44,035 bases of DNA, taken from NCBI GenBank assembly GCA_003577005.1, contig QEUW01000016.1, forward strand, positions 1 through 44,035, given 5' to 3'. Positions 18,155-44,035 of this stretch are shown in pieces (position 1 is the stretch's first letter; the number at the start of each line of letters is the position of its first letter). Under the pieces are notes generated by a model, which ran no database searches, was not told the DNA's origin, and saw only the letters and a list, made by a program, of their open reading frames with translations. Origin of the DNA: Chloroflexota bacterium. Lineage in GTDB: Bacteria; Chloroflexota; Anaerolineae; Caldilineales; Caldilineaceae. A program made the translations under genes and the position numbers.

Positions 18155-18949
18155 ATGACAATACCCACCGCAACACCCTACCAGGACATCCTGGTCGAGA
18201 CGCCTCGGCCCGGCGTCGGCCTGATCCGTTTCAACCGGCCCCAGGCGCTCAACGCGCTGCGCACACAGTTGATGGAGGAGTTGCTCGCCGCACTCCGCGC
18301 CTTTGACAGTGACTCCACCGTTGGCGCTATCGTCATCACTGGCAACGAGCGGGCTTTCTCTGCTGGCGCCGACATCCACGAAATGGCCGACTCCTCGCCA
18401 ACGGCTATGCTCAGACGGGGCTCGGTCGAACGTTGGGCACAACTGCGCGGCGTGCGCAAGCCGATCATCGCCGCCGTTAGCGGTCACTGTCTTGGCGGCG
18501 GTTGTGAGCTGGCAATGACCTGCGATATCATTGTCGCCGCCGAAAATGCCAGCTTTGGCCAGCCGGAAATCAATATCGGCGTGATCCCAGGCGCCGGCGG
18601 CACGCAGCGGCTGGCCCGCGCCGTCGGCAAGTCATTGACCATGGAGATGGTGCTCAACGACCGCCGCCTGACGGCCGCGGAGGCGTTGCAAGCGGGCCTG
18701 GTCAGCCGGGTGGCCCCCGTCGCCAGCTATCTGGACGAGGCGCTGACCCTGGCCTTTCAAATTGCCGAACGCGCCCCGCTCGCCGTCCAATTGGGCAAAG
18801 AGGCGGTCAACAAGGCTTTTGACCTCTCGCTCAGCGACGGGCTGGCCTACGAGCAAAAACTCTTCTTCCTCCTCTTTGCCAGCGAAGACCAGAAAGAGGG
18901 GATGCGCGCTTTTGGTGAAAAACGGAAACCAGTGTGGACAGGGAGGTGA
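18155..18949 (+). CDS. Enoyl-CoA hydratase/isomerase family protein
   Basis: The 264-residue crotonase-fold enzyme has the oxyanion-hole motifs RAFSAGADIHEM and GHCLGGGCELAM, then the two catalytic-type Glu positions in FGQPEINIGVIPGAGGTQRL. This is the classical enoyl-CoA hydratase pattern (trans-2-enoyl-CoA to 3-hydroxyacyl-CoA, beta-oxidation). The length and C-terminal DQKEGMRAFGEKRKP are normal. GGAG 7 bases before ATG supports the start. Its TGA stop lies inside the Shine-Dalgarno of the next gene, a CHAT protein with no known link to fatty acid metabolism, so coupling is by position only. Confidence 0.92.
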   Translation: MTIPTATPYQDILVETPRPGVGLIRFNRPQALNALRTQLMEELLAALRAFDSDSTVGAIVITGNERAFSAGADIHEMADSSPTAMLRRGSVERWAQLRGVRKPIIAAVSGHCLGGGCELAMTCDIIVAAENASFGQPEINIGVIPGAGGTQRLARAVGKSLTMEMVLNDRRLTAAEALQAGLVSRVAPVASYLDEALTLAFQIAERAPLAVQLGKEAVNKAFDLSLSDGLAYEQKLFFLLFASEDQKEGMRAFGEKRKPVWTGR

Positions 18950-18951
18950 GT

Positions 18952-21297
18952 GTGGATGCGCGCGTCTTTGACCAACGCCGTAGCCCGGAGACGCTGGCGG
19001 CGGCGCTCAATCTGTTATTCGACCACTGGCTCAACCTGCCTGTCGAACTGCGCAAGCAGATCGATGAGCGCCGCCGCCAGCTTCGGCTCGAATTGCCGAC
19101 GACGCCCCCCCTCCAGCGCGCCGGGCGCATCATCGCCTTTCTCAACGAGTTGGAAGCCATCCCGCAAGTGGCCGCCATTGCCGGCCCAATCCTGGAGGCT
19201 GGCAAGGGTCCAAGTTACCGGCTCATCGTTCAATTTACTGATGAGCAGTTGCGCGACCTGATAACTACGTTGGCCACACCGGCGCCTGAGCCGGAAGCTG
19301 CCGTTGTCCAGCCAGAGCTGCTGCCGTTTCAACTCCACATGACGACCGCACCGCCCGCCGCAGCCGGCGCGCCGATCCCACTGCTGGTTCATCTGACGCC
19401 AGACACACGCCCTGCCTCCCAACAGGGCGACGCCATCTTGATCCCCTTTGTCGATCTGCGCCAGCCGGTGCGAGTAGAGGTCCTGCTCAAAGCGCCCGGC
19501 TTTAGCGAGGCAACCGGCGACTGGACGAGATTGATCGATCTGTTCTCGCTGGGGCGCTCGCTGCCGGCGATCTTTTTGTTGCAGGGTGATGGAACGACCG
19601 GGGAGCAATCAATCTGGGTGCAGATCAACCAGGTGGCCGGCAGTGCGCTGCGCAAGGTCAATATCGTCTCTCCGTTGGTGGCAAAGTCGGTCATGCCGTC
19701 CAGTCTCGAAGCGGCACCGCTGCGCAGCGCCGCCGCGCCCACCCAGCGGGCGTTCTACACCGATGTACAGTTCCCCAGCCAGGTGTTGGCGCGCACCGTA
19801 CACCCGCTGGTTGTGCGGCTGACGTTGGAACAGTCTGCAAGCAGCCGTGTAGCGAGCCAGGCGAACATCTCGTTTGCCAATCCTCATCAGGCCGAGGCGA
19901 TCGAAGTGGTGGTAGACGCTCCCGGCTTTACCGAGCAGAGCGGCAACTTGCGCCGCATCTTTAGTCTCTACAGCGAGATCGACTCGCAGCCGGCTGTCTT
20001 TCTGTTGCAAGCCGGCGAGACAATCGGGCGTCACCAGGTCACGCTGGATTTTTATCACCGCGGCCGGCTGCTGCTCAACACCTTCTTCGAGGCGGAGATT
20101 GTCGAGCAGCTGGCCGACACACCTCCCCAATTACGCACCCGGCCAGATACGCCACCATTGGAGCCGATCCCTCAACATCCGCCAGAGCCACCCGACCTCG
20201 AACTACGCATTCTCTTTGACCCGCAGACTCGCGTACTGCGTTTCCGGCTTCATGCCGAAAATGCCGAATTGGGCTATCGAGACCGTGAACTGGGCGAAGT
20301 CCGGCTGGCGGCCGACCCGCACCAATTCCTGGAGCAGACCTTTATCCAACTCAGCGAACTGGCTGCGCGGCCGGTTGATACGCTGTCCGAAAGCGACACA
20401 GCCGCCCAGTTCGATGACCTGGTCACCATCGGTCAGGATCTGTTTTACAAGCTCTTCTCTCCCGAGTTGCGACAGGAATACTGGCGGGTCAAACAGCTAC
20501 GCGAAACAGGCAAGGTGCGTTCCCTCCTGCTGATCAGCGACGAGCCGTGGATCCCTTGGGAATTGGTCAAGCCCTATGAGTTCGACCGCACCAGCAATCA
20601 GGCGCGGCAAGATGGCTTCTTGGCCGAATCCTTTCAGGTGGCGCGCTGGCTTACGAAACGCGGCGTTGGCTCGCATATCGATATCACCGCTGCCCGGTTG
20701 GTGGCGCCGGCATCCAACCTCATGTATTCGCAAAAAGAGATCGATTATTTTGCTACATTGGGCCAGCGCGGCGTAGAGGTCGGCAAGCCGCTCGGGGCCC
20801 GGAGCGATGTGCTGGCAACGATGCGCACGGCTCGGGTCAAACTGCTCCACCTGGCCGCACACGGCAACTTCAAGCCCGACAACCCCTATGATTCGCCCCT
20901 CGAACTCGACAGTGGCGAATACTTGCGCCCCTCCGACCTGGCGGGCGCCCGCGCCGAAGCGTTGCGTATGGAGCGCCCCCTGGTCTTTCTCAACGCCTGC
21001 CACGGCGCCCAGATCGCCTTTGCCCTCACCGGTCTGGGTGGCTGGGCCGAGCGGATGGTCGGCGACATCGGCGTCAGCGCCTTCGTCGGTGCGCTGTGGG
21101 AGATCAACGACCTGCTGGCAGCCGAGTTTGCCATCCACTTTTACGATCAACTCATCGAGGGCCGGCCCCTGGCCGGGGCGTTCCACGCCGCCCGGCTTCA
21201 CATCCGCGCCCAGGCCCCTGCCAATCCCACTTGGCTGGCCTATACCCTCTACGCCGACCCCAATGCGCAGGTAAGGTGGAGTGGGCTGCGGCGATGA
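18952..21297 (+). CDS. CHAT-domain protein with two Ig-like repeats
   Basis: The product has about 781 residues. Residues 1-100 are helical with no recognised family. Two similar beta-rich repeats follow (about 115-225 and 265-380), each containing a core like 'EVLLKAPGF' / 'EVVVDAPGF' and then 'PAIFLLQ' / 'PAVFLLQ'. A linker leads to a C-terminal CHAT domain (about 500-780) with catalytic-type His in LLHLAAHGNF (residue ~637) and Cys in FLNACHGAQ (~683). The CHAT fold is a caspase-like peptidase. The start is set at the GTG at 18952 because a full GGAGGTGA Shine-Dalgarno lies at 18942-18949; an in-frame GTG at 18934 would give 6 more residues. The neighbour enoyl-CoA hydratase stop is within this Shine-Dalgarno. 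No signal peptide is seen. Confidence 0.85.
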   Translation: MDARVFDQRRSPETLAAALNLLFDHWLNLPVELRKQIDERRRQLRLELPTTPPLQRAGRIIAFLNELEAIPQVAAIAGPILEAGKGPSYRLIVQFTDEQLRDLITTLATPAPEPEAAVVQPELLPFQLHMTTAPPAAAGAPIPLLVHLTPDTRPASQQGDAILIPFVDLRQPVRVEVLLKAPGFSEATGDWTRLIDLFSLGRSLPAIFLLQGDGTTGEQSIWVQINQVAGSALRKVNIVSPLVAKSVMPSSLEAAPLRSAAAPTQRAFYTDVQFPSQVLARTVHPLVVRLTLEQSASSRVASQANISFANPHQAEAIEVVVDAPGFTEQSGNLRRIFSLYSEIDSQPAVFLLQAGETIGRHQVTLDFYHRGRLLLNTFFEAEIVEQLADTPPQLRTRPDTPPLEPIPQHPPEPPDLELRILFDPQTRVLRFRLHAENAELGYRDRELGEVRLAADPHQFLEQTFIQLSELAARPVDTLSESDTAAQFDDLVTIGQDLFYKLFSPELRQEYWRVKQLRETGKVRSLLLISDEPWIPWELVKPYEFDRTSNQARQDGFLAESFQVARWLTKRGVGSHIDITAARLVAPASNLMYSQKEIDYFATLGQRGVEVGKPLGARSDVLATMRTARVKLLHLAAHGNFKPDNPYDSPLELDSGEYLRPSDLAGARAEALRMERPLVFLNACHGAQIAFALTGLGGWAERMVGDIGVSAFVGALWEINDLLAAEFAIHFYDQLIEGRPLAGAFHAARLHIRAQAPANPTWLAYTLYADPNAQVRWSGLRR

Positions 21298-28880: not shown

Positions 28881-32117
<3,237 letters not shown>

Positions 32118-32169
32118 CGGGTCACCTGCTGCAAATGATTCCAGCTCTTCACGATTGAATGGTAATTGT

Positions 32170-32197
32170 GGAGTTCGCACGCCTACGTGCGAACTCC
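32170..32197. repeat. Hairpin, family GGAGTTCGCACG, copy 2
   Basis: GGAGTTCGCACG (32170-32181), loop CCTA, and the exact inverted complement (32186-32197). Same stem as the hairpin at 24127-24160 with a different loop. It lies in the 115-base gap between the two ileS genes, where it could lower or protect expression of the downstream copy. Confidence 0.75.
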
Positions 32198-32232
32198 GCG
32201 GGATCCGATTCCCGCTATAATGGGTCGAGCTA

Positions 32233-35200
32233 TTATGCCTTACGAATCCCAACCGTCACCTCAGCATCGCCCAGGACAAAAGATACTCGAACCAGGCCGG
32301 CCGTGTCAGCGCTATTTTGTACAATCTCCACCGTGAGTGTTTCCGCGCACACGTAGTCCCCAAAGTTCGACAAGGTCTGCTGTAACAATGCCGAGTCGGA
32401 AATATGCAGGACGATGCGGTCACTCACATTCAGATTGACGTCCTTGCGCAACTGTTGGATATGGCGCACCAGTTCGCGGGCGTAACCCTCCTGCTCCAGT
32501 TGCGGCGTCACCGTGGTGTCCACTGCCACCGTAAGCGCTTTGTCGGCAGCGACGGCCAGACCAGCCGCTGGCTGTGATTGGACAAGAATCTCCTCTGGGC
32601 TCAATTCGATAGTCTCCTCGCCCACGGTCACCTGCACCGGTTCATTGGTATTGACCTGATTAGCCACTGCGTTGGGGTCGAGCGCCGCCAGCGCCGCCCG
32701 CACCTGGGGAAAAGCCTGGCCCAGCCGGGGTCCCAATAACTTATTGTTGGGCAGGATACGATAACTGACCAACTGGCCCACATCAGCTACCGATTCAAAC
32801 GCTTTGACGTTCAACTCGTCCATGATCGTAGTGAGCAGGCTTTCATCGAGCGCCAGCGAGCGGTCACTCAAATGCACAAGGACCTTTGCCAGCGGCTGGC
32901 GTACTTTGATCCCGGCATTGCTGCGGGCGCTCAAACCCAGGCTGGCAATGCGCCGGGCGAGATCCATCTGTTCGAGCAAGGTTTTGTCGATCATGGCGCG
33001 GTCGGCCACGGGCCAGCTTGTATGATGCACACTCGCATACGCATCCGCATGGACGGCAGTGACGAGCGACTGGTAGATCGTCTCGGTCACAAAGGGCGTC
33101 AGCGGCGCCAGGGTGCGGGTGAGTTTGACCAATACGTGATAGAGCGTGGCGTAGGCACTCAGCTTGTCGGCATCGTGCTCGCTGCGCCAGAAGCGGCGGC
33201 GGCTGCGGCGCAGATACCAGTTGGCCAGGTCGTCGATAAAGGTTTCCACGGTCAAGGTGGGGCTGAATGCATCATAGTTTTCCAGCGCCACCGTGACGTC
33301 CGCCACCACCTGGTTGAGCCGTGCCAGGATCCACTGATCCAGCAGGTTAACGCTGGATGGCGTCTCCCCTTCGGGCGCTGCGGGGTCAAAGTTTGTGCCG
33401 TCCGGCTCCCATTGGTCAAGGCTGGCGTAGGTCAAAAAGAAGCTGTAGACGTTCCACAAAGGGATCAGAAAGCGACGGCGCACATCATCGGCTCGGTTGT
33501 AACCAAAGGGCAGATTGTTTTCCGGTTTGTGGGCGCAATAGAGCCAGCGCATCACATCGACGCCCATTTTGTCGGCGGCTTCGTTGAATTCGATGGCGTT
33601 GCCCCAGCTTTTGTGCATGGCGCGGCCATCTTCGGCGATCAACGTCGCATAGCCAAAGAGCGTGCGGAAGGGTGGGCGGCCATCCATTACGGTCGCCATC
33701 ACCAGCAGGCTATAGAACCAGTTGCGGAACTGGCCGGGAAAGGACTCGCTGACCCAGTCGGCCGGATACCACTGCTCCCAATAAGCGCGGTCGCTCCGGT
33801 AGCTGAGCGTGCTAAAGGGGACGATGCCGGCGTCCAGCCAGGGGTTGCCGACGTCGGGGATGCGCGTCATGGCCTGGCTGCCACACTGGGGGCAGGCTAG
33901 TTGCACGGCGTCAATATAGGGACGATGGGGCGTGTGGCCCTCGAATTGCTCCCAGCCGGCCACGGCGCGCTCCTTCAGTTCCTTTTCATCGCCGATCACC
34001 TCGAAGTGCCCACAATCATCACAGGTCCAGATTGGCAAGGCTAGGCCCCAGTAGCGCTTCTTGCTGATCATCCAGTCGTGCATATTGCGCAACCAGTCCA
34101 TCTCGCGGGCGTGACCAAATTCGGGGATCCAGCGGATCTGGTCGACAATATTCATGATCTGGTAGCGCAGGCTGCGCGCCTTCTCGGCGGGCGTCACCTC
34201 CTCGCGCGGTTTGTCGTAGCGTTCGCCCATGCTGATAAACCATTCATCCACCAGGCGGAAGACCAGTTCGGTCTTGCAGCGCCAGCAGGTGGGATAGCGG
34301 TGCGTGTAGGGCTCGATACGATAGAGCAGCCCTTTGCGCTCCAGGTCGGCAAAGATCGGCTCCGCCACTTTGGCGACGTGCAGACCGGCCAACGGGCCAA
34401 AGTGCTCGATAAAGAAGCCTTCATCAGTCAGGGGCGCTAGCAGGGGCAGGCTATATTGCTTCGCCAGTTGAAAGTCCTCGGCGCCGCAGCCAGGGGCAAT
34501 ATGGACGATGCCCGTGCCCTCCTCCTCGCCCACCTCGTCCCACAAGATCACCCGGTGGGCCTCACGAGCGCTGTCCGAAACCGTGCGCACCAGTTCGGTG
34601 AGTGGAGTTACGCCACCGGGTTGTTGCGCCGCCGGTAGATCATCAAACGGGCCGTCATACGCCCAGCCTTCCAGTTCGACGCCTTTGTATTCTGCGACAA
34701 CTGTGTAATCGCCTTGTAGCATCGTTAGGGCGCCCTTTGCGAGATAGAAGAACTCGTCGCCCTGTTGCACTTTGACATAGGTCAGTTCTGGGCCAACCGC
34801 TGCCGCCACGTTGCTGGTTAGGGTCCAGGGGGTCGTGGTCCAGACCAGGAGCGATTCGTTGGGGCGCCCGCGCAGGGGCAGACGCAGCGTCACACTCTGG
34901 TGCGTGAGTTCGGCATAGCCGTCGGTGACGATTTCGTGTTGGCTGATCCCGGTCGCACAGCGGGGACACCAGGGCATCACATCGGCGCCGCGGTAGAGCC
35001 AGCCCTTCTCCCAACATTTTTTGAGAAAGGCCCAGATCATGTAGTTGTTTTCGTTCGAGAAGGTAAAGTAGCTCCCGACCAGTTCAGGCAGCCCCAGCCG
35101 CCCTACGATCTGCTCGACCGTATCGGTGACTGGGCCAGCGGACCCGTCAACCGTGATGACCTGTGACGGGTCCTCGCCCAGTTTTTGCGCCAGCCAGCGC

Positions 35201-35652
35201 AATTGGTCCGGGTCGTTCCAGTCCATCCAGTAGCCGAGCCGCATCGACTGGATGGTCTGCACGGCAGCGTAACGCAACACACGCTCCTTGCAGCGCAGCA
35301 CAAAGTTATCGATGCCGTACGCTTCGATATCCTTTTTGGACTTGAAGCCTAACTCCTTTTCGACCTCGACCTCTACCCACAGACCCTGGCAATCGAAGCC
35401 GTTCTGATAGCGCAACTCGCGCCCGCGCATAGTCCAAAAGCGGCAGTAGAGGTCCTTAAAGGTGCGCCCCCAGCCGTGATGGACACCCATGGGGTTGTTG
35501 GCCGTGATGGGGCCGTCGATAAATGACCAGGTGGGCTCTCCCTTGTGGAGCTTGCGCAGGGTGGCAAAGGCCTGGCTCTGCTGCCAAAAATCGAGCACCT
35601 CATGTTCTTGTTTGACAAAGTCAACTTTGCTGGCAACCGGGGTGAATGGCAT
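32233..35652 (-). CDS. Aberrant isoleucyl-tRNA synthetase paralogue, GVHH / AMHKS
   Basis: The product has 1139 residues and is colinear with type 2 IleRS, but it diverges strongly from the neighbour. The HIGH motif is GVHH (residues 56-59, [12 protein letters not shown]) and KMSKS is AMHKS (678-682), so only the second Lys and Ser remain. The editing strand [11 protein letters not shown] and [15 protein letters not shown] are kept. It has an added two-knuckle zinc ribbon (CDDCGHFE ... CPQCGSQ) before the ATP-side region, plus other cysteine pairs. A good Shine-Dalgarno (AGGAGG) precedes the ATG. It follows alaX under an isoleucine T-box. It could be a specialised or antibiotic-resistant IleRS, or have moved to another role; both are open. 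Annotation as class I tRNA ligase is firm, substrate less so. Confidence 0.85.
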
Positions 35653-35782: not shown

Positions 35783-36517
35783 TCAATCGCCTACCTTGAT
35801 GTAGATCCGCTTGTTGATGGCGCCTTTGCTCTTGTAATCGACCACCTTTATCTGCCCCACTTCGCGCGTATTCGCCACGTGGGTGCCGCCATCAGCCTGC
35901 AAGTCCAGGCCGACGATTTCGACCGTTCGCACCTCCTGGATGCCGGCGGGCAGCAGGTTGATCTTGGTGCGGATCAGGTCGGGGATCTGGAAGGCTTCCT
36001 CCCTGGGCAAAATCTTTGTCCGCACCGCCCGCGCCGCCGCGATTTCGGCGTTGCACTTCGCCTCGATCTCGCTGATCAGGTCACGCGTCAGGCTGGCGAA
36101 CTCAAAATCCATGCGCCCCTCGCCGAGATCCATATTGCCGCCGGTGACGCTGGCCCCATAGTCGCGCCAGACGACGCCGCAGAGGATGTGCATGGCCGTA
36201 TGCGTGCGCATGAGCCGGTAGCGCCGCTCCCAGTCCAGTTCACCGCGCAGGATAGCGCCCACGCCAATCGTTGCCCCATCGCTCTTCTGCCCCACCGTGT
36301 GCCAGATGTGCTCCCCCTCTTTTTTCACCGCCGTCACCGGAGAGCGCTGGTCATCAAGGAGCAACCAGCCAATGTCGTGAGGTTGGCCGCCGCCGCCGGG
36401 GTAGAAGGCCGTGCGGTCGAGCGCCAGCCGCACGCTATCGCCCACCGGTTCGACGGCGAGAACCGTGGCGCTAAACGCTTTCGTATAAGCATCCTGGTAA
36501 TAAAGCAATTCGGTCAT
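35783..36517 (-). CDS. alaX: AlaX-type alanyl-tRNA editing protein
   Basis: The free-standing editing domain has 244 residues. It starts with LYYQDAYTKAFSATVLAVE and LDRTAFYPGGGGQPHDIGWL, the usual AlaX/AlaRS editing N-domain. It then has the metal motif HTAMH (His 106 and 110) and DGGTHV (His 213). The Cys normally found in CxxxH is Asp 209 here. AlaX enzymes hydrolyse Ser- and Gly-tRNA-Ala mistakes. The ending NTREVGQIKVVDYKSKGAIN fits. GGAAAGG precedes the start by 9 bases. Sitting behind a T-box with an isoleucine specifier and before ileS is unusual for an alanine-related enzyme. Confidence 0.9.
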   Translation of the reverse strand: MTELLYYQDAYTKAFSATVLAVEPVGDSVRLALDRTAFYPGGGGQPHDIGWLLLDDQRSPVTAVKKEGEHIWHTVGQKSDGATIGVGAILRGELDWERRYRLMRTHTAMHILCGVVWRDYGASVTGGNMDLGEGRMDFEFASLTRDLISEIEAKCNAEIAAARAVRTKILPREEAFQIPDLIRTKINLLPAGIQEVRTVEIVGLDLQADGGTHVANTREVGQIKVVDYKSKGAINKRIYIKVGD

Positions 36518-36601
36518 GGTGCTCTACCTTTCCGCATACGACGGCCAACGTCGGGACAAAAATCTGCGGATGGCGCTAGCCGCGCCGCTGCGTATCAAAA
36601 C

Positions 36602-36629
36602 AAAAAACCCATCCCCACTCGGGGACGGG
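36602..36629 (-). terminator. T-box terminator hairpin
   Basis: On the minus strand CCCGTCCCC pairs with GGGGATGGG around GAGT-type loop bases and is followed by TTTTTT (36602-36607). Its 5' arm overlaps the 3' half of the antiterminator. Confidence 0.88.
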
Positions 36630-36927
36630 CTGTTAAGTCCGCGGTACCACCCCGGTTCCTGCCTGTAAGTCCATACAGACAAGCACCTTGTCGCAGAGCC
36701 AGTTGATAAGACGACCTGGGTCGCTCCGTTCACTGAATCAGCCGTGATGCTAACGGGTCACGACCCCGGCGGCGTCTACTGTTCAGGGATGGTCATAAAC
36801 CTGAAGTTCGGGCCGCAGCTCTGGAGGGATCTTCAACGCCGTCCGCTGTACCTGGCTTCCACCGGCCCAGGCTCGCTGGACAGGGTTGGGGCGTCTACTC
36901 GTCTCCATCGATGCTATTTGTGTATTA
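36602..36927 (-). promoter_or_regulatory. T-box leader, isoleucine (AUC) specifier
   Basis: On the minus strand the leader shows all main T-box parts. Stem I has AGTA on the 5' side of the specifier loop (36896-36899). The distal loop CCTGGGCCGGTGGAAGCCAGG (36851-36871, key bases GGTG..AAG) resembles that of glyQS. The 3' side has GAAG-ATC-CC with the specifier AUC at 36828-36830. Flanking stems pair (TGGAG/CTCCA and GACGCC/GGCGTT). The T-box core GGTGGTACCGCG follows near 36640-36651, then the terminator. Uncharged tRNA-Ile would bind and prevent termination, raising alaX and the two ileS genes. Confidence 0.9.
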
Positions 36928-36933
36928 GTGGGT

Positions 36934-36962
36934 AGTGTAGCATGGCCGGGAATGGATGTCAA
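36934..36962 (-). promoter_or_regulatory. Promoter of the alaX-ileS-ileS transcript
   Basis: On the minus strand TTGACA (36957-36962), a 17-base spacer and TACACT (36934-36939). Transcription would begin near 36927, at the start of the T-box. Confidence 0.8.
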
Positions 36963-37091
36963 GCACTTGCGAGTCTGGGAATTTTTCAATTTAGCACCAA
37001 TTTTTGCCATTTGACAAAACCTCGCCTGGCTGCACCCAACGCCTCGACGAAATGGAAAAACGGCTGAATCCCAATCTATAGGCCGGTCATA

Positions 37092-37122
37092 CCCCTGGCT
37101 GCCTCCGCCGCTCAGCCAGGGG
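37092..37122. repeat. 10-bp stem hairpin upstream of CHAT operon promoter
   Basis: CCCCTGGCTG (37092-37101) and CAGCCAGGGG (37113-37122). It lies 13 bases before the -35 box and might be an operator or a block to upstream transcription. The rest of 36963-37091 has no visible gene. Confidence 0.5.
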
Positions 37123-37135
37123 CGATCAGGCTCGC

Positions 37136-37164
37136 TTGACAACCGCTCGCGCCACCGCTACAAT
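37136..37164 (+). promoter_or_regulatory. Near-consensus promoter of the CHAT/TPR operon
   Basis: TTGACA (37136-37141), spacer of exactly 17 bases, TACAAT (37159-37164). It gives an untranslated leader of about 105 bases before the ATG at 37277. Confidence 0.82.
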
Positions 37165-37276
37165 CATCATCAGGCTGACCACCCTGCTCCTGCTGCTGGC
37201 TGCACGCCACCAACTATGTACGCTTCGCCGCCAGCAGGCACCGCCACACCGTCTGACCCTAACCGGATGGAGAATC

Positions 37277-39859
37277 ATGTTGACTGTTGACCAGGCGCCT
37301 CAGCGCGTCGGCGGCATTGCTGCTGTATCGTACAATTTCGACCTGCGCATCGAACCGTGGGGAGATGGCTATCGCTGCCGGGCTGCCAGTGCGCTGGCCG
37401 GTGAAGCGGTTGCTCCCTTTGACGCGCCCTTTGCCGAGGGTGCGGTGGCGACGTTTTGGGCCGGGCTGGCCGGCGCCAACGTAGATCAACTCGAAGAGTA
37501 CGGCGCCACACTCTTCGACGCTCTCTTTGTCCAGGAGGTGGGGGCTAGCTTTCAGCGCGCCCTGGCGTTGGCCCAGCAGCAAGGGGCGTCTTTACGCATC
37601 CGCCTCAACTTGACCGACGCACCGGCGCTGGCGCACCTGCCCTGGGAATATCTGTACGACCACAGACAGGGTCGTTTTCTGGCCCAGTCACTTCAGACGC
37701 CAATCGTACGCTATCTGGACCTCAGCGGGCCGGTCAAATCGCTGGCTGTCCGGCCGCCGCTGCGTGTGTTGGTGGTGATCGCCCACCCTCCGGATGCGCC
37801 ACCTCTGGATGTAGTGCGCGAGTGGGCCAATATCCAACAGGCGCTCCAGCCATTGATAGACCAGGGGCAGATCGAGTTGGAACAACTGCCACAGGGAACG
37901 CTCGCTGCGCTCCAGGATCGGCTGCGCAGCAATCCGGTCCATGTTGTCCATTTTATCGGTCACGGCGCTTTCGACGATGTCGCGCAGGATGGGCTGCTGC
38001 TCTTTGAGAACGAGCAGGGGGCCAGCCGTTTTGTCGGCGGTGAGCGGCTGGGGGCGCTTCTGCGCAACCACCTGCCGGTTCGTCTGGTGGTGCTCAATTC
38101 GTGCGCCGGTGCGCGCGCCGCGGTAACCGACGCCTTCGCCGGCGTGGCGCAGACGCTGGTTCGCCAGGGCATTCCGGCGGTGATCGCCATGCAGTATGAG
38201 ATCACCGACCGAGCTTCCCGTCACTTTAGCCAGGAGTTCTACGCCTCTCTCGCTGACGGCTTGGCGGTCGATGCTGCCCTGACCGAGGCGCGCGTGGCCC
38301 TGTTTACGCGTGACCACGAAACCGAGTGGGGCTTGCCGGTGCTCTATCTGCGCGCTGCCGATGGCCGCATCTTTGATATGGGTGCGAGCACCACGCAAGG
38401 GGGAACGATCACCGTCACACCGCAACCGCAATGGCACACGATTGGGAGCCTGTGGCTGGGCGCAGGTGTGGTAGGGTTTGTATTGCTCATTGGGCTGGCC
38501 TACTTTCTGCTCTCGGCCTGGCCAATCGTCCGGGCCACATTGGCTGTCATGGGTACTGCGCTGGCCTTTATCATCGGCTTGCTTGGCCTGCGCGAAGATC
38601 GAACCCTCTTTCCCCATCTGAGCCAGTGGGTGGGCGCCACCCCATGGATGCAGGGTGCGCTGGGAACGCTCCTGGTGCTCGGTGTCGGCTTGTGGGTCGG
38701 CGTGGCTCTACCTCGCATCCAGTGTGGACCCCCTGGCTGCCCACCACCTGGCGTGCGCTATTTTGCCATCGGACCGTGGGAGAATCTGACCCCGGGCACA
38801 TCGCCCTTCGAGGGCGTCTGGACCCAGGGTACCCGGCGTACGCTCTATGAAAAGCTCGAAAGTATTCCTGGCTGGCAAGGGATCGCGCAGGACAGCATAG
38901 AGGTTGCTGGAGGTGTCGGCTGTTATCTTGACCTGTGGATCGAGGGGGGATTTCAGAAGATCGAAACCGTGCAACTGTCGGCCACTGTGGCGGCGCGCGG
39001 TTGTCGCCACCAGCAGACCATCGACGTGCGCGCGGCCATCGATGAAGCCAGACCAGGGGTGGAGTTGCAGATTTTGGAGTTGCAAAATCAACTGACCGAA
39101 GCGATCTTGACCGCATTAGGCGTCAATGTGACGCCGGCTATGCGTGAAACCATCCGTAACACGCCAACCGGCGACGCCCGTGCGCTCTTTCTCAACAACA
39201 TGGCGGCCACCACGCTCGACCAGGGTGGTGACCTGGACACCGCAGAATTGCTGCTACGCCAGGCCATCGAGCAGGACCCGGCCTATGCCAGTCCCCACAA
39301 CAACCTGGCCCGCCTCCACTACCTGCGTAACGACTTCCCTGCTGCCCTGGCAGAACACCAGCAGGCGATCCAACTTTCGCCTGATAACGCCCTCTACCAC
39401 TTCAACCTGGGCCTCACCTATGAACGCATGAATGACCTTGCCGGTGCCGTAGCAGCCTACCGCACTGCCGTGCTGCTCGACCCGGCCTATGCGCGGGCGT
39501 TCAACAACCTTGGCTTCACCTATCTGCTCATAGGTGAACTGAAGCAGGCAACCGAGGCACTCGAACGTGGGCTTGCGCTCGCGCCCGACCTACCCGCCCT
39601 CCACAAGAACCTGGGCCGCGTCGATCTGGCCCAAGGCGACCCCGAGGAAGCAATAGCGGAATTGCAGCGCGCCATCGACCTCTCGCCTGATGGGTTCTAC
39701 CCAGAGGCGCTCTTTTACCTCGCCCAGGCCCAGCACGACGCGGGCCAGATCGAAATGGCCTGCACAACCTTGCGCGACTATCTAGCGCTGGCCGTTGAGG
39801 ACGATCCTGAACGCAGCGACAAGGCGAACGTATGGCAGGATGAATGGGCATGCCCCTGA
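37277..39859 (+). CDS. CHAT domain - transmembrane - TPR protein
   Basis: The 860-residue protein has three regions. An N-terminal CHAT domain covers about residues 1-375, with the caspase-like dyad in HFIGHGAFDD (His 229) and LNSCAGAR (Cys 276) and the flanking VIAMQYEITD segment. Three hydrophobic helices lie at about 387-412, 415-435 and 457-476. After a ~140-residue linker, five or six 34-residue TPRs run from about 620 to 850 (typical NNLGFTYLLIGELKQATEAL). Three helices would place CHAT and TPRs on opposite sides of the membrane, with CHAT inside by the usual rule (inference). The ATG at 37277 follows GGATGGAG by 5 bases. It is first in an operon with a FecR-like lipoprotein and a TPR-CHAT protein. 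Confidence 0.88.
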   Translation: MLTVDQAPQRVGGIAAVSYNFDLRIEPWGDGYRCRAASALAGEAVAPFDAPFAEGAVATFWAGLAGANVDQLEEYGATLFDALFVQEVGASFQRALALAQQQGASLRIRLNLTDAPALAHLPWEYLYDHRQGRFLAQSLQTPIVRYLDLSGPVKSLAVRPPLRVLVVIAHPPDAPPLDVVREWANIQQALQPLIDQGQIELEQLPQGTLAALQDRLRSNPVHVVHFIGHGAFDDVAQDGLLLFENEQGASRFVGGERLGALLRNHLPVRLVVLNSCAGARAAVTDAFAGVAQTLVRQGIPAVIAMQYEITDRASRHFSQEFYASLADGLAVDAALTEARVALFTRDHETEWGLPVLYLRAADGRIFDMGASTTQGGTITVTPQPQWHTIGSLWLGAGVVGFVLLIGLAYFLLSAWPIVRATLAVMGTALAFIIGLLGLREDRTLFPHLSQWVGATPWMQGALGTLLVLGVGLWVGVALPRIQCGPPGCPPPGVRYFAIGPWENLTPGTSPFEGVWTQGTRRTLYEKLESIPGWQGIAQDSIEVAGGVGCYLDLWIEGGFQKIETVQLSATVAARGCRHQQTIDVRAAIDEARPGVELQILELQNQLTEAILTALGVNVTPAMRETIRNTPTGDARALFLNNMAATTLDQGGDLDTAELLLRQAIEQDPAYASPHNNLARLHYLRNDFPAALAEHQQAIQLSPDNALYHFNLGLTYERMNDLAGAVAAYRTAVLLDPAYARAFNNLGFTYLLIGELKQATEALERGLALAPDLPALHKNLGRVDLAQGDPEEAIAELQRAIDLSPDGFYPEALFYLAQAQHDAGQIEMACTTLRDYLALAVEDDPERSDKANVWQDEWACP

Positions 39860-39919
39860 CACGATTATGCGACGGGCAGCCAGGTCCGATCTGTGGTACA
39901 CTCAACCGAGGAGTCCACA

Positions 39920-41206
39920 ATGTTTATCTCGTTCTTGCACACTCCAGTGCGTCGCTGGCAGAGCTGGTTACGGTGTTGCATCTGGGCTGGCGTTGCGCTC
40001 AGCACAGCCGCCTGTGCCTTACCGTCTGCTCCTGTGTCCGCTACTCTTGCCCCGCCCACGCCCGTCATTGACGCAGTACAACCGGCTGCCAACCGCAACG
40101 CCGAACTGATCGGCGTCTTGACCGGCTTCACCGGCGAGGTCACGGTATCTGCGCCGGGCGGTGAGCGTACCAGCGCGGCCCTGTTTCACCCTCTGCTTAT
40201 CGGCGCGACGGTAGAATTGAGTGCCGGAGCCAGCGCCACCATCCACTGTCTGGATGATCGTCTGCTCGTCCTCGCCGGGCCAGACCAGGTGACGGTCGAT
40301 ACAGCTCGCTGCGCCGGTGGTGAACGCCTGCCCGGCAGCAGCGCCCGCCTCGTCCCCGGCGGTGGCCGGTTACGCGTCAACCAGAGCAGTCTGGAACTGG
40401 AAGGCGAGACGCGTGAGGCTGAGGGCGACTACGGCAACCTTCCTGTTATCCTCAGCCCGCGCAACACCAATCTGCTGGAATTGACGCCTGTCGTGCAGTG
40501 GATCGAGGTGCCGGACGCCACCGAATACGTGCTGGAGTTGAGTGGCCCCGCTTCGTTTGCGCCGATCACCCTGAAGGTTGAGGGGCTCTCCTGCATGGAA
40601 GAGGAGCGCACGACGCCCTATCGCCTCTGCACCGGCCATTGGCCGGCGGAGTGGCAGCTGGCCGCCGGCAAACGCTATTTTCTCACCGTGAGCGCCCGCA
40701 CCAGCATCGCCTCTCCACTGCGCCGGTCTCAGCGCAGCAGCGTGCGCCCGCTCGACGCTGATACAGCCACCCAGGTGCGAGAGGAGGTCTCGGCAGTCGA
40801 GGCAATGGGTCTCGATCGGGTGACCACCGATCTGCTGCTGGCAGGTCTGTACGCCGGACAGGAGGTATACGCTCAAGCCATTCCGCTCTTTGAGGGCGTG
40901 CTCGCCGTGCAGCCGGCGCCGGTGCTCTATGTGACGCTGGGCGACGCCTATCGCGCAATTGACCTGCAGCGCTTTGCGGCTCTGGCCTATCGCCAGGCGC
41001 TCGACCGGCTGGACCAGGGCGAAGATAATCCCGCGGTGCGAGCCGCGGCCGAATTTGGCCTCGGCATGGTGGAGTACAGCCGGATGCAGTTTGCCCTGGC
41101 CGAACCGCATTTTGTCATGGCGGTAGAACTCTATCGTCAACTTGGGGCCGAAGAGGAGTTGCGGGCGGCGCAGGCAGCATTGGAAGAGACGCAGAGGCGT
41201 CAATAA
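39920..41206 (+). CDS. FecR-like putative lipoprotein with helical C-terminus
   Basis: This is a 428-residue exported protein. The signal segment (RCCIWAGVALSTAAC) ends in a possible lipobox Cys near residue 33. Residues ~68-140 look like a FecR-type beta domain (GEVTVSAPGG ... IGATVELSAGASATIHCLDD, then GPDQVTV). An Ig/fibronectin-like part follows (TPVVQWIEVPDATEYVLELSG, about 195-270). The C-terminal 130 residues are TPR-like helices (LLLAGLYAGQEVYAQAIPLFE). FecR-type domains often sense envelope signals. The ATG at 39920 has GAGGAG 8 bases upstream. It lies 60 bases after the CHAT-TM-TPR gene and 9 bases before the TPR-CHAT gene. Confidence 0.75.
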   Translation: MFISFLHTPVRRWQSWLRCCIWAGVALSTAACALPSAPVSATLAPPTPVIDAVQPAANRNAELIGVLTGFTGEVTVSAPGGERTSAALFHPLLIGATVELSAGASATIHCLDDRLLVLAGPDQVTVDTARCAGGERLPGSSARLVPGGGRLRVNQSSLELEGETREAEGDYGNLPVILSPRNTNLLELTPVVQWIEVPDATEYVLELSGPASFAPITLKVEGLSCMEEERTTPYRLCTGHWPAEWQLAAGKRYFLTVSARTSIASPLRRSQRSSVRPLDADTATQVREEVSAVEAMGLDRVTTDLLLAGLYAGQEVYAQAIPLFEGVLAVQPAPVLYVTLGDAYRAIDLQRFAALAYRQALDRLDQGEDNPAVRAAAEFGLGMVEYSRMQFALAEPHFVMAVELYRQLGAEEELRAAQAALEETQRRQ

Positions 41207-41215
41207 TCAAACACC

Positions 41216-43858
41216 ATGAGATACAGCCAAGCATTGTACTTTTTCTCAAGCCTGTTGGTCGCATTTACGATTAGCTGGAGTGCCACACTGTCTCCTCGAC
41301 ACGCAAGCGCGGTGCTGTTTTCACAAACTCCGATACCGACTAGTGATTTCGTACTTGCCAGCCAAGCTGAACAATTGTTCAATGATGGCTACCGGTTGCA
41401 TCGCAAGGGAGATTTTCAGAATGCATTAAGCAACTATGAGCAAGCGTTGTCTATCTTTCGCCGGATAGGCGACCTGTCTGGAGAAGGAAAGACGCTCAGT
41501 AATATTGCCTTTGTTTACAGCAACGCGGGGCACTATGATCAGGCGTTAGAGCACTATCACTTGGCTCTATTAACCCTTCGCAAAGCGGCTGATCAGTATA
41601 ACCAAGGCGTTGTCTTGAATAATATAGGGGCTGTCTATTTAACATTAGGACAGTTTGATGAGGCATTGGATTCGTTGGAAGAGGCACTGACGATACGATT
41701 AGAGATACATGATCGATTAGGAGAAGGTGTGACGCTTGGTTTGTTTGGGTATGTATATTACAACCTTGGACAATATGGAGAGGCACTAGATTATTATTTC
41801 CAATCATTAAGCATCAGAAGGGAAGTTTATGACCAGGAGGGTGAAGCCTCAACCTTGAATAAGATCGGGCTAACCTATTGGCGCACTGGACAACACGAGC
41901 GTGCCTTAACAAATTATCAACAGTCTTTAGAATTATATATGACATTAGGATACCCACTTGAACAGGGGGTAGCATATAACAATATTGGAGAGATTTATTA
42001 TGATCTGAAAAGATATGATCAAGCGTTAGCAAATTATCAGCAAGCCCTCGCGATCGCTCGTAGACTTGGCGTTCCAACAATAGAAGGAACAGTACTCAAT
42101 AATATTGGCGAGACCTATCGTGAAGCAAAGCAGTATGACGTGGCGTTACGTTATCTTCAACAAGCCTCAAGCATCTTAAAGAAAAGTAATGTCAGGATAA
42201 TGGAAGCAACGGCGCTAAATAGCATTGGAGAGACCTATAGTCTGTTAGGACGATATTCACAAGCACAAAGCTTTTACCAACAGGCATTGACGATTCGCAA
42301 ACAGGTTGGGGATCGGGCAGGGGAGGCAAAAACGCTCGATAATATCGCATCAGCTTATGCAGAGAGTGGGGATCAAGTGCAGGCCATACTCGTGTACAAG
42401 CAGGCGATTCAACTGCTCGAATCGATCCGCGGCGATATAAATATTGATCAGCTAAAGACCTCTTTCGCAGGCCGACACATGCTGACCTATTCGCGTTTAA
42501 TTGAACTTCTCCAGAATACAGGTAATCCACATGAGGCGTTTGATTACAACGAACGAGCAAGAGCTAGAACGATCCTGGATTTGATAGGGAACACCAAACT
42601 GAACGTTCAGCAAGATGAGATTTCTGTACTTGCTCAACAAGAAAAGGCCTTGGCTCAACTGATCTTTGGATTACAAAATGCGTTAAAGAATGAGCAATTC
42701 AAGCCTTTAAGTCAGCAAGACAGTGGTGCCCTCAATACAATATCAGACGAATTAGGGCGGGCTCGAACCGAGCACGAAGAACTGGTTATGCAACTCCAAA
42801 TAGCTAGCCCAGAGTATGCTACTTTGGTTAGCGTGAATGCGCTAAGTCTGAGCGAAGTGCAGAACCAGGCAATAGATGCCCAGACAACGCTGCTTGAATA
42901 TTTTGTGATGGATGAGCACATGCTGGCTTGGGTGATCGACCAGGATCATTTTGATGTCGTCGACCTGGGGATCACCCGCGCTGAGTTAACGGGACAGGTG
43001 GAATTTTTCCGCAACTTGATCACCGACCGAGACTTTGATGCCGATACTGCCGCTGACCTCTATAACACTCTGTTTGTCCCACTCAAGCCGCACATTCGTC
43101 ACAGCAACCTGGTCGTCGTACCACATGGCGTGCTACACTACCTGCCCTTTGCCGCACTGTGGGATCCGGAAACTAGCCGTTACCTGATCGAAGACTACAC
43201 CCTTACCTACGCCCCCAGCGCCAGCGTGCTCAAGTTCATCCTGGACAAGCGCAATTCGAATGAAGGCCGACTATTGGCGCTGGGTAACCCTGATGACTCG
43301 CTACCCCAAGCGGAAGCTGAGGTGAAGGCGGTGGCGCAACGATACGGCACCAGGCCGCTGTTGCGCAGGCAGGCTACCGAAAGTCAATTCCGTAGCGCAG
43401 CCAGTCAGGCCGACATAATTCATCTGGCCGCCCATGCGGAGTATAACCCCTACAACCCGTTATACACCCGTATCGAATTAGCACCGGATCGCCAGAACGA
43501 TGGCAATCTCGAAGTCCATGAAATCTTTGGCCTGGAATTGACCGGCGCCAACCTCGTCGTACTCTCTGCCTGTGAGACCGCACTGGGCGAACAGAGCAGC
43601 GGTGACGAACTGGTGGGCCTGACACGTGCCTTTCTCTATGCCGGGGCGCCCGCTGTGGTCACCACCCTTTGGTCGATAGAAGACGAAGCGTCCGCAGCGC
43701 TCATGGCCTCGTTTTATGGCCATCTGCGTGCTGGCATGACCAATGCCGAGGCCTTGCGCGCGGCCCAGATCGAAGTGCTAGAGCAGGGGCGGTGGCAACT
43801 GGCCTACTATTGGGCGGCCTTTACGCTGACTGGGGATTGGCGTGGGAGTGAACAGTGA
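41216..43858 (+). CDS. Secreted TPR-CHAT protein
   Basis: The 880-residue protein starts with a signal peptide (ALYFFSSLLVAFTISWSATL). Nine TPRs of about 40 residues each follow from residue ~50 to ~410, of the kinesin-light-chain type (LNNIGEIYYDLKRYDQALANY). A coiled linker spans about 410-560. The C-terminal CHAT domain has HLAAHAEYNP (His 740) and LSACETALGE (Cys 786), both present. CHAT peptidases cut target proteins when a sensor part is engaged; TPRs are the likely sensor. The coding DNA changes character: the TPR part is AT-rich, whereas from about 42,900 on it is GC-rich like the rest of the window, suggesting a fusion. It overlaps the next gene by 4 bases. No clear Shine-Dalgarno precedes the ATG. 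Confidence 0.9.
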   Translation: MRYSQALYFFSSLLVAFTISWSATLSPRHASAVLFSQTPIPTSDFVLASQAEQLFNDGYRLHRKGDFQNALSNYEQALSIFRRIGDLSGEGKTLSNIAFVYSNAGHYDQALEHYHLALLTLRKAADQYNQGVVLNNIGAVYLTLGQFDEALDSLEEALTIRLEIHDRLGEGVTLGLFGYVYYNLGQYGEALDYYFQSLSIRREVYDQEGEASTLNKIGLTYWRTGQHERALTNYQQSLELYMTLGYPLEQGVAYNNIGEIYYDLKRYDQALANYQQALAIARRLGVPTIEGTVLNNIGETYREAKQYDVALRYLQQASSILKKSNVRIMEATALNSIGETYSLLGRYSQAQSFYQQALTIRKQVGDRAGEAKTLDNIASAYAESGDQVQAILVYKQAIQLLESIRGDINIDQLKTSFAGRHMLTYSRLIELLQNTGNPHEAFDYNERARARTILDLIGNTKLNVQQDEISVLAQQEKALAQLIFGLQNALKNEQFKPLSQQDSGALNTISDELGRARTEHEELVMQLQIASPEYATLVSVNALSLSEVQNQAIDAQTTLLEYFVMDEHMLAWVIDQDHFDVVDLGITRAELTGQVEFFRNLITDRDFDADTAADLYNTLFVPLKPHIRHSNLVVVPHGVLHYLPFAALWDPETSRYLIEDYTLTYAPSASVLKFILDKRNSNEGRLLALGNPDDSLPQAEAEVKAVAQRYGTRPLLRRQATESQFRSAASQADIIHLAAHAEYNPYNPLYTRIELAPDRQNDGNLEVHEIFGLELTGANLVVLSACETALGEQSSGDELVGLTRAFLYAGAPAVVTTLWSIEDEASAALMASFYGHLRAGMTNAEALRAAQIEVLEQGRWQLAYYWAAFTLTGDWRGSEQ

Positions 43859-44035
43859 CAGACCAGCAAAGGCTGCACCATCTGACGATCTATCTGTTGT
43901 GGCTGATCGTCTTGATCGCGCTATCAACGGCTGCGATCCCCTCACCCGGTCTGCGCCAGGCTGACCCGCAGGCGCAGGCCGAGGAACTCCTGGCCGCGGG
44001 CCAACGTCTGTTCCAGCAAGACGAGATTGCGCCAG
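43855..44035 (+). CDS. Signal-peptide protein, TPR-like start, cut by window end
   Basis: A GTG at 43855 overlaps the TGA of the TPR-CHAT gene (GTGA) and opens a frame to the last base. It reads TDQQRLHHLTIYLLWLIVL, then IALSTAAIPSPG, a membrane or signal segment, and AEELLAAGQRLFQQDEIAP, which looks like the first TPR helix. It is probably another TPR or TPR-CHAT member of the same operon. The remainder is outside the window. Confidence 0.6.
   Translation, partial: MTDQQRLHHLTIYLLWLIVLIALSTAAIPSPGLRQADPQAQAEELLAAGQRLFQQDEIAP

Follow-up and report, generated by a model that had tools for sequence, protein, structure and literature searches.

Do the genes that close this contig act together across the cell envelope, or do they merely lie side by side? 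The window, i.e. the whole stretch of 44,035 nucleotides analyzed here, ends in a region (37136-44035) with three complete genes on the + strand followed by the start of a fourth. The first-pass annotation, made from the sequence alone, read them as a sensor-and-protease chain. To our knowledge, CHAT proteases are common in bacteria, and what activates them is known for few. The adaptor gene described below recurs next to CHAT genes across a phylum boundary and provides a handle on both ligand and substrate.

Promoter, gene order and domains of the locus

A sigma-70-type promoter (TTGACA-17-TACAAT) is located at 37136..37164 (+). It matches the consensus at 11 of 12 positions, which bears out the strong promoter claimed at first pass; when the 759 bases upstream were shuffled 1000 times by mononucleotide, this value was never reached. 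The TTG at 37136 was discarded as the start of gene 1 because it belongs to the -35 box, and the ATG at 37277 is the likely start. The spacing between genes is tight: 60 bases between genes 1 and 2, 9 bases between genes 2 and 3, and a 4-base overlap between genes 3 and 4. The two + strand terminator-like sites that we found are inside genes 1 and 3, and none is between genes. The first-pass annotation had recognized that separate transcripts for the two CHAT domains would undo its proposal; the tight spacing and the intergenic gaps free of + strand terminator-like sites favour, at the sequence level, a single transcript for genes 1-4. Upstream, on the opposite strand, a T-box leader precedes an AlaX-like gene and two large genes for class-I tRNA synthetases. 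These genes are divergent, and the putative operon therefore has its own start. The T-box leader (36618-36920, -) scores 91.5 bits (E 1.3e-20), just under the gathering score of 93, so that it is missed at the default threshold, and we read its specifier from the alignment as AUC (Ile). The synthetase genes (28881-32252 and 32233-35652, -) are in tandem, with a 20-base overlap. Both match tRNA-synt_1, Anticodon_1 and DUF5915, and in our reading both encode IleS.

Gene 1 (37277..39859, +) encodes 860 aa that comprise, according to Pfam and hydropathy, a CHAT domain, three predicted TM helices, a linker domain and a TPR ectodomain. Its Pfam matches are CHAT (E 1.5e-34) and TPRs, without a kinase. 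The CHAT domain (residues 74-348; 37496..38320, +) carries the dyad H229 and C276, which is kept in 119/119 gene-1 relatives among the matches listed (the best 120 of 752). Three hydrophobic segments follow within residues 387-483 (38435..38725, +), the first two of which overlap in the hydropathy output, and then the linker (38726..39196, +) and the TPRs (residues 635-845; 39179..39811, +). The membrane CHAT protein with TPRs described at first pass is thus recovered by the Pfam CHAT and TPR matches and the three hydrophobic segments, and this arrangement would place the CHAT domain inside and the TPRs outside the membrane. The linker has no Pfam match at E<=1 and no relative in the PDB by profile search (best E 0.39); we presume that it resembles a TolB/CsgG-like domain. 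Judging from the accessions of its relatives, the CHAT domain of gene 1 is of a family whose members are joined to many other domains, Pkinase among them, and we take TIR, WD40, FHA and FGE-sulfatase to be further partners, again by accession.

Gene 2 (39920..41206, +) encodes a predicted lipoprotein of 428 aa. Its lipobox cysteine, C32 (40013..40015, +), is near-invariant in the alignment of relatives. It is followed by an anchoring/FecR-like beta domain (residues 61-136; 40100..40327, +) that matches 5ix9, a "Cell surface anchoring domain", by an FN3/Ig-like domain (residues 169-281; 40424..40762, +) and by TPR helices (residues 282-428; 40763..41203, +). The FecR-like lipoprotein of the first-pass annotation hence stands as a lipoprotein but not as a member of Pfam FecR (PF04773), an assignment that we discarded. 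The beta domains have no Pfam match. PF04773 is absent among the families listed (25 of 32) at E<=1 for 21 aligned gene-2 members, and the window's own protein has none of the families listed at that threshold. Neither did PF04773 match in 9 plasmid records, nor is any entry named FecR among the matches listed in the search that gave 5ix9, on which a literature search returned nothing. A search of the protein collection gave at least 21 relatives of gene 2, including one of 99% identity. Two of the 21 carry an organism name (Caldilinea sp. CFX5 and a Chloroflexota bacterium), which suggests that the family belongs to the Chloroflexota. Two exact-pattern scans of 84,980 species genomes, which could miss distant relatives, returned none for gene 2 and none for the TM/linker region of gene 1, and the viral contigs searched gave none either. 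One protein, P0031, is a natural fusion in which CHAT, TM and TPR parts are followed by a gene-2 part: its residues 861-1224 are 43% identical to gene 2 over 367 aligned positions (E 3e-81). A search designed to find further gene-1/gene-2 fusions returned P0031 alone.

Gene 3 (41216..43858, +; 880 aa) has a signal-like N-terminus, TPRs and a second CHAT domain (residues 611-874; 43046..43837, +), as seen by Pfam and ORF translation. The dyad of this outer CHAT, H740 and C786, aligns with the His/Cys of solved Csx29 chains. This agrees with the exported-looking TPR-CHAT protein with intact His/Cys reported at first pass, and both CHAT domains of the locus thus retain, in sequence alignments, the putative catalytic dyad on which that proposal depended. 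The TPR half of gene 3 (41216..42904, +) stands out by its composition. GC is 0.44 over 41216-42599, GC3 changes from 0.43 to 0.66 at codon 563 (equalled in 0 of 500 shuffles), and of all kilobase intervals of the contig, taken at a step of 100, the 14 with the lowest GC have their starts between 41001 and 42301, within this half or shortly ahead of it. Its composition suggests that the outer TPR part may be a later exchange than the protease part. The contig ends 177 bases after gene 3 and 181 bases into gene 4 (43855..44035, +), the first 60 codons of which look exported (hydrophobic residues 6-33), in line with the further exported, 4-base-overlapping gene noted before. Elsewhere in the window, a further CHAT gene (18934-21297, +; CHAT at residues 501-762, E 1.2e-17) overlaps an enoyl-CoA hydratase gene by 16 bases.

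Gene-2 relatives on cyanobacterial plasmids

Among plasmids, one distant match to gene 2, in a Fischerella plasmid, led to a family present on 44 plasmid records. A single profile-profile comparison of 21 window-side with 20 cyanobacterial gene-2 sequences gave a probability of 99.6 (E 3.5e-24) and aligned 318 columns that include all three domains in the same order. Judged by these profiles, most of gene 2 shares homology with the proteins from cyanobacterial plasmids. We analyzed 21 of the 44 records, picked for their spread of genus and identity and not at random, and call their loci type I; 20 of them are annotated, and L015 was read by ORF and Pfam. A kinase gene is found in front of the gene-2 homologue, on the same strand, in 21/21 loci, and adjoins it in 20 (three genes lie between them in L001). 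Directly behind comes a convergent CHAT gene, again in 21/21. The two convergent genes overlap by 15-40 bases at their 3' ends in 16/20 annotated loci (e.g. L004:7879-7918), the overlap being absent in L001, L005, L013 and L014.

All 21 kinase proteins have Pfam Pkinase and TPR matches. In the annotated loci, they carry an N-terminal four-cysteine motif (20/20), HRD (20/20) and DFG (19/20), and a hydrophobic segment reaching 1.6 separates kinase and TPRs in 16/20. The CHAT dyad is kept in 20/20 annotated loci, and 15/20 CHAT proteins have an N-terminal hydrophobic segment of at least 1.6. A Pfam scan of five of these CHAT genes revealed TPRs as well in three (none at E<=1e-6 in L023), and the CHAT ORF of L015 has only 352 aa. 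These proteins are not close to gene 3 (24-32% identity), and many other TPR-CHATs match gene 3 as well or better, so that orthology of gene 3 with the type-I CHATs is unsupported.

A ShlB-type transporter and/or a TPS/haemagglutinin-like gene follows the CHAT gene in 18/21 loci (20 of them, all but L015, were examined for it; L014 and L020 have no annotated one). Such neighbours would fit a system devoted to surface proteins, where the exported TPR-CHAT protease brings an exoprotein to maturity or checks it, gene 2 holds the complex at the surface, gene 1 reports the state of the surface, and signalling is secondary. The match of the first domain of gene 2 to a cell surface anchoring domain points the same way. 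However, the window, which stops early in gene 4, shows no gene for such an exoprotein, and neither the inner CHAT nor the kinases would be needed for such a task; we regard this role as unlikely to be the main one.

A STAND-type NTPase gene, identified by annotation or Pfam, is present in either orientation beside 20/21 loci. The call in L022 is based on weak sub-cut-off Pfam matches and the annotation "ATP-binding protein", and L019, which has none, is cut by the start of the record. The replication gene CyRepA1 is found in 11/20 annotated regions (L004-L007, L012-L014, L017, L020, L024 and L025), and the cassette lies near it as if it were part of the plasmid backbone. This link to plasmids may partly reflect sampling, since the cyanobacterial loci were all drawn from a collection of plasmids. 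In two Herpetosiphon plasmid loci, CHAT-matching genes have no cassette around them, by annotation alone. The STAND and CyRepA1 genes would suit a role in conflict or self-recognition, in which a phage, plasmid or neighbour sensed outside triggers the inner CHAT, or the kinase and the STAND NTPase, to harm or stop the cell. The many fusions of the gene-1 CHAT family are consistent with this role, and putative conflict systems are described with TIR, repeats and caspase-fold peptidases (PMC7159879, partial text) and with CHAT and TIR (PMC10907252, partial text). Yet the PADLOC matches (SAVED_CHAT at 44.5 bits, a TPR model at 118.7 bits, others below 30 bits) fall on common CHAT and TPR domains and not on a whole system, and no known defence gene was found among 10 other ORFs of the window that were scanned. 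We consider conflict about as improbable a main function as surface processing. With CyRepA1 nearby, a role in conflict between plasmids or at the cell surface could be tested in strains that can be cultured.

The best plasmid match to the CHAT domain of gene 3 (48.5% identity) led elsewhere, to pANSO36D of Nostoc cf. commune, the single locus of type II. It encodes, on one strand, a 403-aa protein, a 372-aa protein, a TPR protein and a CHAT protein, in the same order and direction as in the window. The 403-aa protein has three hydrophobic segments (threshold 1.4) and TPRs; it has no recognized inner enzyme, and its frame stops five codons upstream. The 372-aa protein is the gene-2 homologue (probability 99.4, E 1.1e-21 in a single comparison, 321 columns). 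A search with it gave 20 records, i.e. itself and 19 weaker matches, all cyanobacterial. The TPR and CHAT proteins look like the products of a single TPR-CHAT gene broken into two frames; they match gene 3 with identities of 32-36% and 41%.

The first-pass annotation had named the lack of a conserved neighbourhood as fatal to its proposal. The neighbours of gene 2 are kept in 21/21 type-I loci and in the type-II locus, all of them cyanobacterial. TPR and CHAT genes are common, and the window has another CHAT gene at 18934-21297, so one could imagine ordinary genes brought together by chance. However, gene-2 relatives have such neighbours in 22/22 cyanobacterial loci, and P0031 joins parts of genes 1 and 2 in one protein. 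The neighbourhood result already disfavours chance, to which we give very little credence.

Gene 1 and the kinase receptors

The window and the type-I cassette have in common a gene-2 homologue, a receptor gene of like position and architecture ahead of it, and a CHAT gene directly behind it, which is convergent in type I and on the same strand in the window. They differ in the inner enzyme, a kinase in type I and a CHAT in gene 1. The STAND NTPase gene of type I is absent next to gene 1, where the AlaX-like and the two tRNA synthetase genes are found instead, and no ShlB/TPS genes were seen in the window, which ends in gene 4.

Are the two receptors the same protein with different enzymes? 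The profiles of gene-1 and kinase ectodomains align with a score of 170, which we discarded as proof of orthology because generic TPR arrays reach like scores. More precisely, three such arrays, drawn from the stronger tblastn matches to the TPR part of gene 1, score 123, 89 and 74 against the kinase profile, versus 97.5-125 for four gene-1 proteins. Against the gene-1 profile the same arrays score 149, 141 and 101, versus 58-104 for 20 kinases. When the comparison with the kinase profile is restricted to the C-terminal part, scores are 41-63 for six gene-1 proteins and 18-42 for 20 controls, but one of these gene-1 proteins is below the best control and two are aligned out of register; in the reverse comparison controls reach 73, and the nine of 20 kinases that were tried score 36-67. 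A motif, LHKNLG[RW] (with variants), is present in 7/7 gene-1 proteins tried, in the type-II 403-aa protein and in 13/20 kinases, 74-93 residues ahead of the C-terminus (86 for LHKNLGR in gene 1; the distance in the fused P0031 is not comparable). It is absent from 110 other gene-1 hits, many of which lack TPRs, and from three TPR controls. P0027-P0029, which have no complete TPR end, were left out. It is suggestive that the motif is shared and stands similarly far from the end, although it was chosen after the alignment had been seen.

Against the TPR profile of the kinases, the 403-aa protein of type II reaches a score of 162. It is likely related to the type-I kinases in its TPR part, since this score exceeds those of the three generic arrays (74-123). 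Its TM region compared with that of gene 1 scores 17.8, for 11.5-15.6 in four controls, which is not convincing. Hence, for the window, the idea of one receptor with another inner enzyme draws on where the gene lies, on its architecture and on the fusion in P0031, and not on ectodomains proven to be homologous.

Proposed signalling across the envelope and known systems

The gene order, the domains, the integrity of the dyads, the presence of the gene-2 family in both groups and the recurrence of its neighbours in cyanobacteria are established. From them we infer the topology, co-transcription, contact between parts, proteolysis, an outside-to-inside direction and the purpose. Outside the membrane, the gene 2 lipoprotein and the exported TPR-CHAT protease would form the constant part: gene 2, held at the surface, would sense or process a protein signal together with the protease. 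Gene 1 would be the receptor, whose TPR ectodomain docks with these partners or is cut by them. The change would pass via the three TM helices and switch on the cytosolic CHAT protease, which might then cut a cytosolic target. In cyanobacteria a kinase receptor takes the place of gene 1, and the inner enzyme may thus be exchangeable. If so, the kinase and CHAT versions would separate the sensing from the acting parts.

We rate signalling as the most likely function because of the switching of Csx29 by its partner and the fusions of the inner CHAT family, some in putative conflict systems; surface processing and conflict are close rivals, and the three are not mutually exclusive. We give even chances to genes 1-4 being a trans-envelope signalling operon, an assessment that covers one locus of the Chloroflexota type. 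Counting against it are the generic TPR likeness of the gene-1 ectodomain, the distance of gene 3 from the type-I CHATs, a type II represented by one locus, the three intervening genes of L001 and the pattern scans that found no relative. More tentatively, and somewhat short of even, the loci might represent a receptor class of two phyla, in which a fixed outside adaptor and an exported TPR-CHAT serve interchangeable inside enzymes (a plasmid-borne Ser/Thr kinase in cyanobacteria, a CHAT in Chloroflexota) and an outer caspase-like protease controls the inner one. The sensor-protease operon proposed at first pass is partly supported, in that it keeps its neighbourhood, dyads and spacing. However, co-transcription is not universal, as the TPR-CHAT gene is convergent in type-I loci, and the inner CHAT is not a constant part, as the inner enzyme is a kinase there.

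Among known proteins, HetF gives gene 1 its highest NCBIfam score (99 bits); HetF of Anabaena is a membrane protein that likewise combines CHAT, TM and TPR parts (PMC8406250, partial text). Gene 1 could accordingly be imagined as a regulator of division or development that acts with the divisome, its neighbours being accessory. We find this very improbable: the score is far from the cut-off of 1200, HetF has one predicted TM segment whereas gene 1 has three by hydropathy as well as a linker domain and an operon with genes 2 and 3, and the partial text of that source names no gene-2 or gene-3 partner for HetF.

The signalling reading finds an analogy in Csx29, which in the Cas7-11 complex cuts Csx30 upon target RNA and needs H615 and C658 (PMC10028731, partial text). 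By this analogy, a TPR-CHAT protease can be switched by a partner. Gene 3 shares the TPR-CHAT architecture and the aligned His/Cys with Csx29/Craspase but looks exported and scores 63 bits for a cut-off of 300, and no CRISPR gene is among the window ORFs scanned, a subset of all ORFs. The two-gene EACC1-caspase conflict system has an N-terminal caspase-fold protease, often with TM helices, and a variable C-terminus (PMC7159879, partial text). Gene 1 likewise has an N-terminal caspase-fold protease with TM helices, but instead of EACC1 the divergent T-box/AlaX/synthetase operon lies upstream, and a search for EACC1 5' of gene 1 gave no Pfam match in 7 of the 16 ORFs of at least 30 aa listed at 36400-37300. 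FecR anti-sigma regulators, like gene 2, have a small beta domain outside the membrane, but PF04773 is unmatched in 21/21 aligned members and genes 1-3 include no sigma factor.

A non-exhaustive literature search found no description of the cassette, no name for its cyanobacterial version and no paper joining a CHAT domain with FecR, two-partner secretion or cyanobacterial filamentous hemagglutinin. The parts belong to known families, and the cassette is one for which the literature searched offers no published description. Set beside the known systems, the gene groups with a CHAT inside (in the window) and with a kinase inside (in cyanobacteria) hint at an undescribed form of signalling across the envelope.
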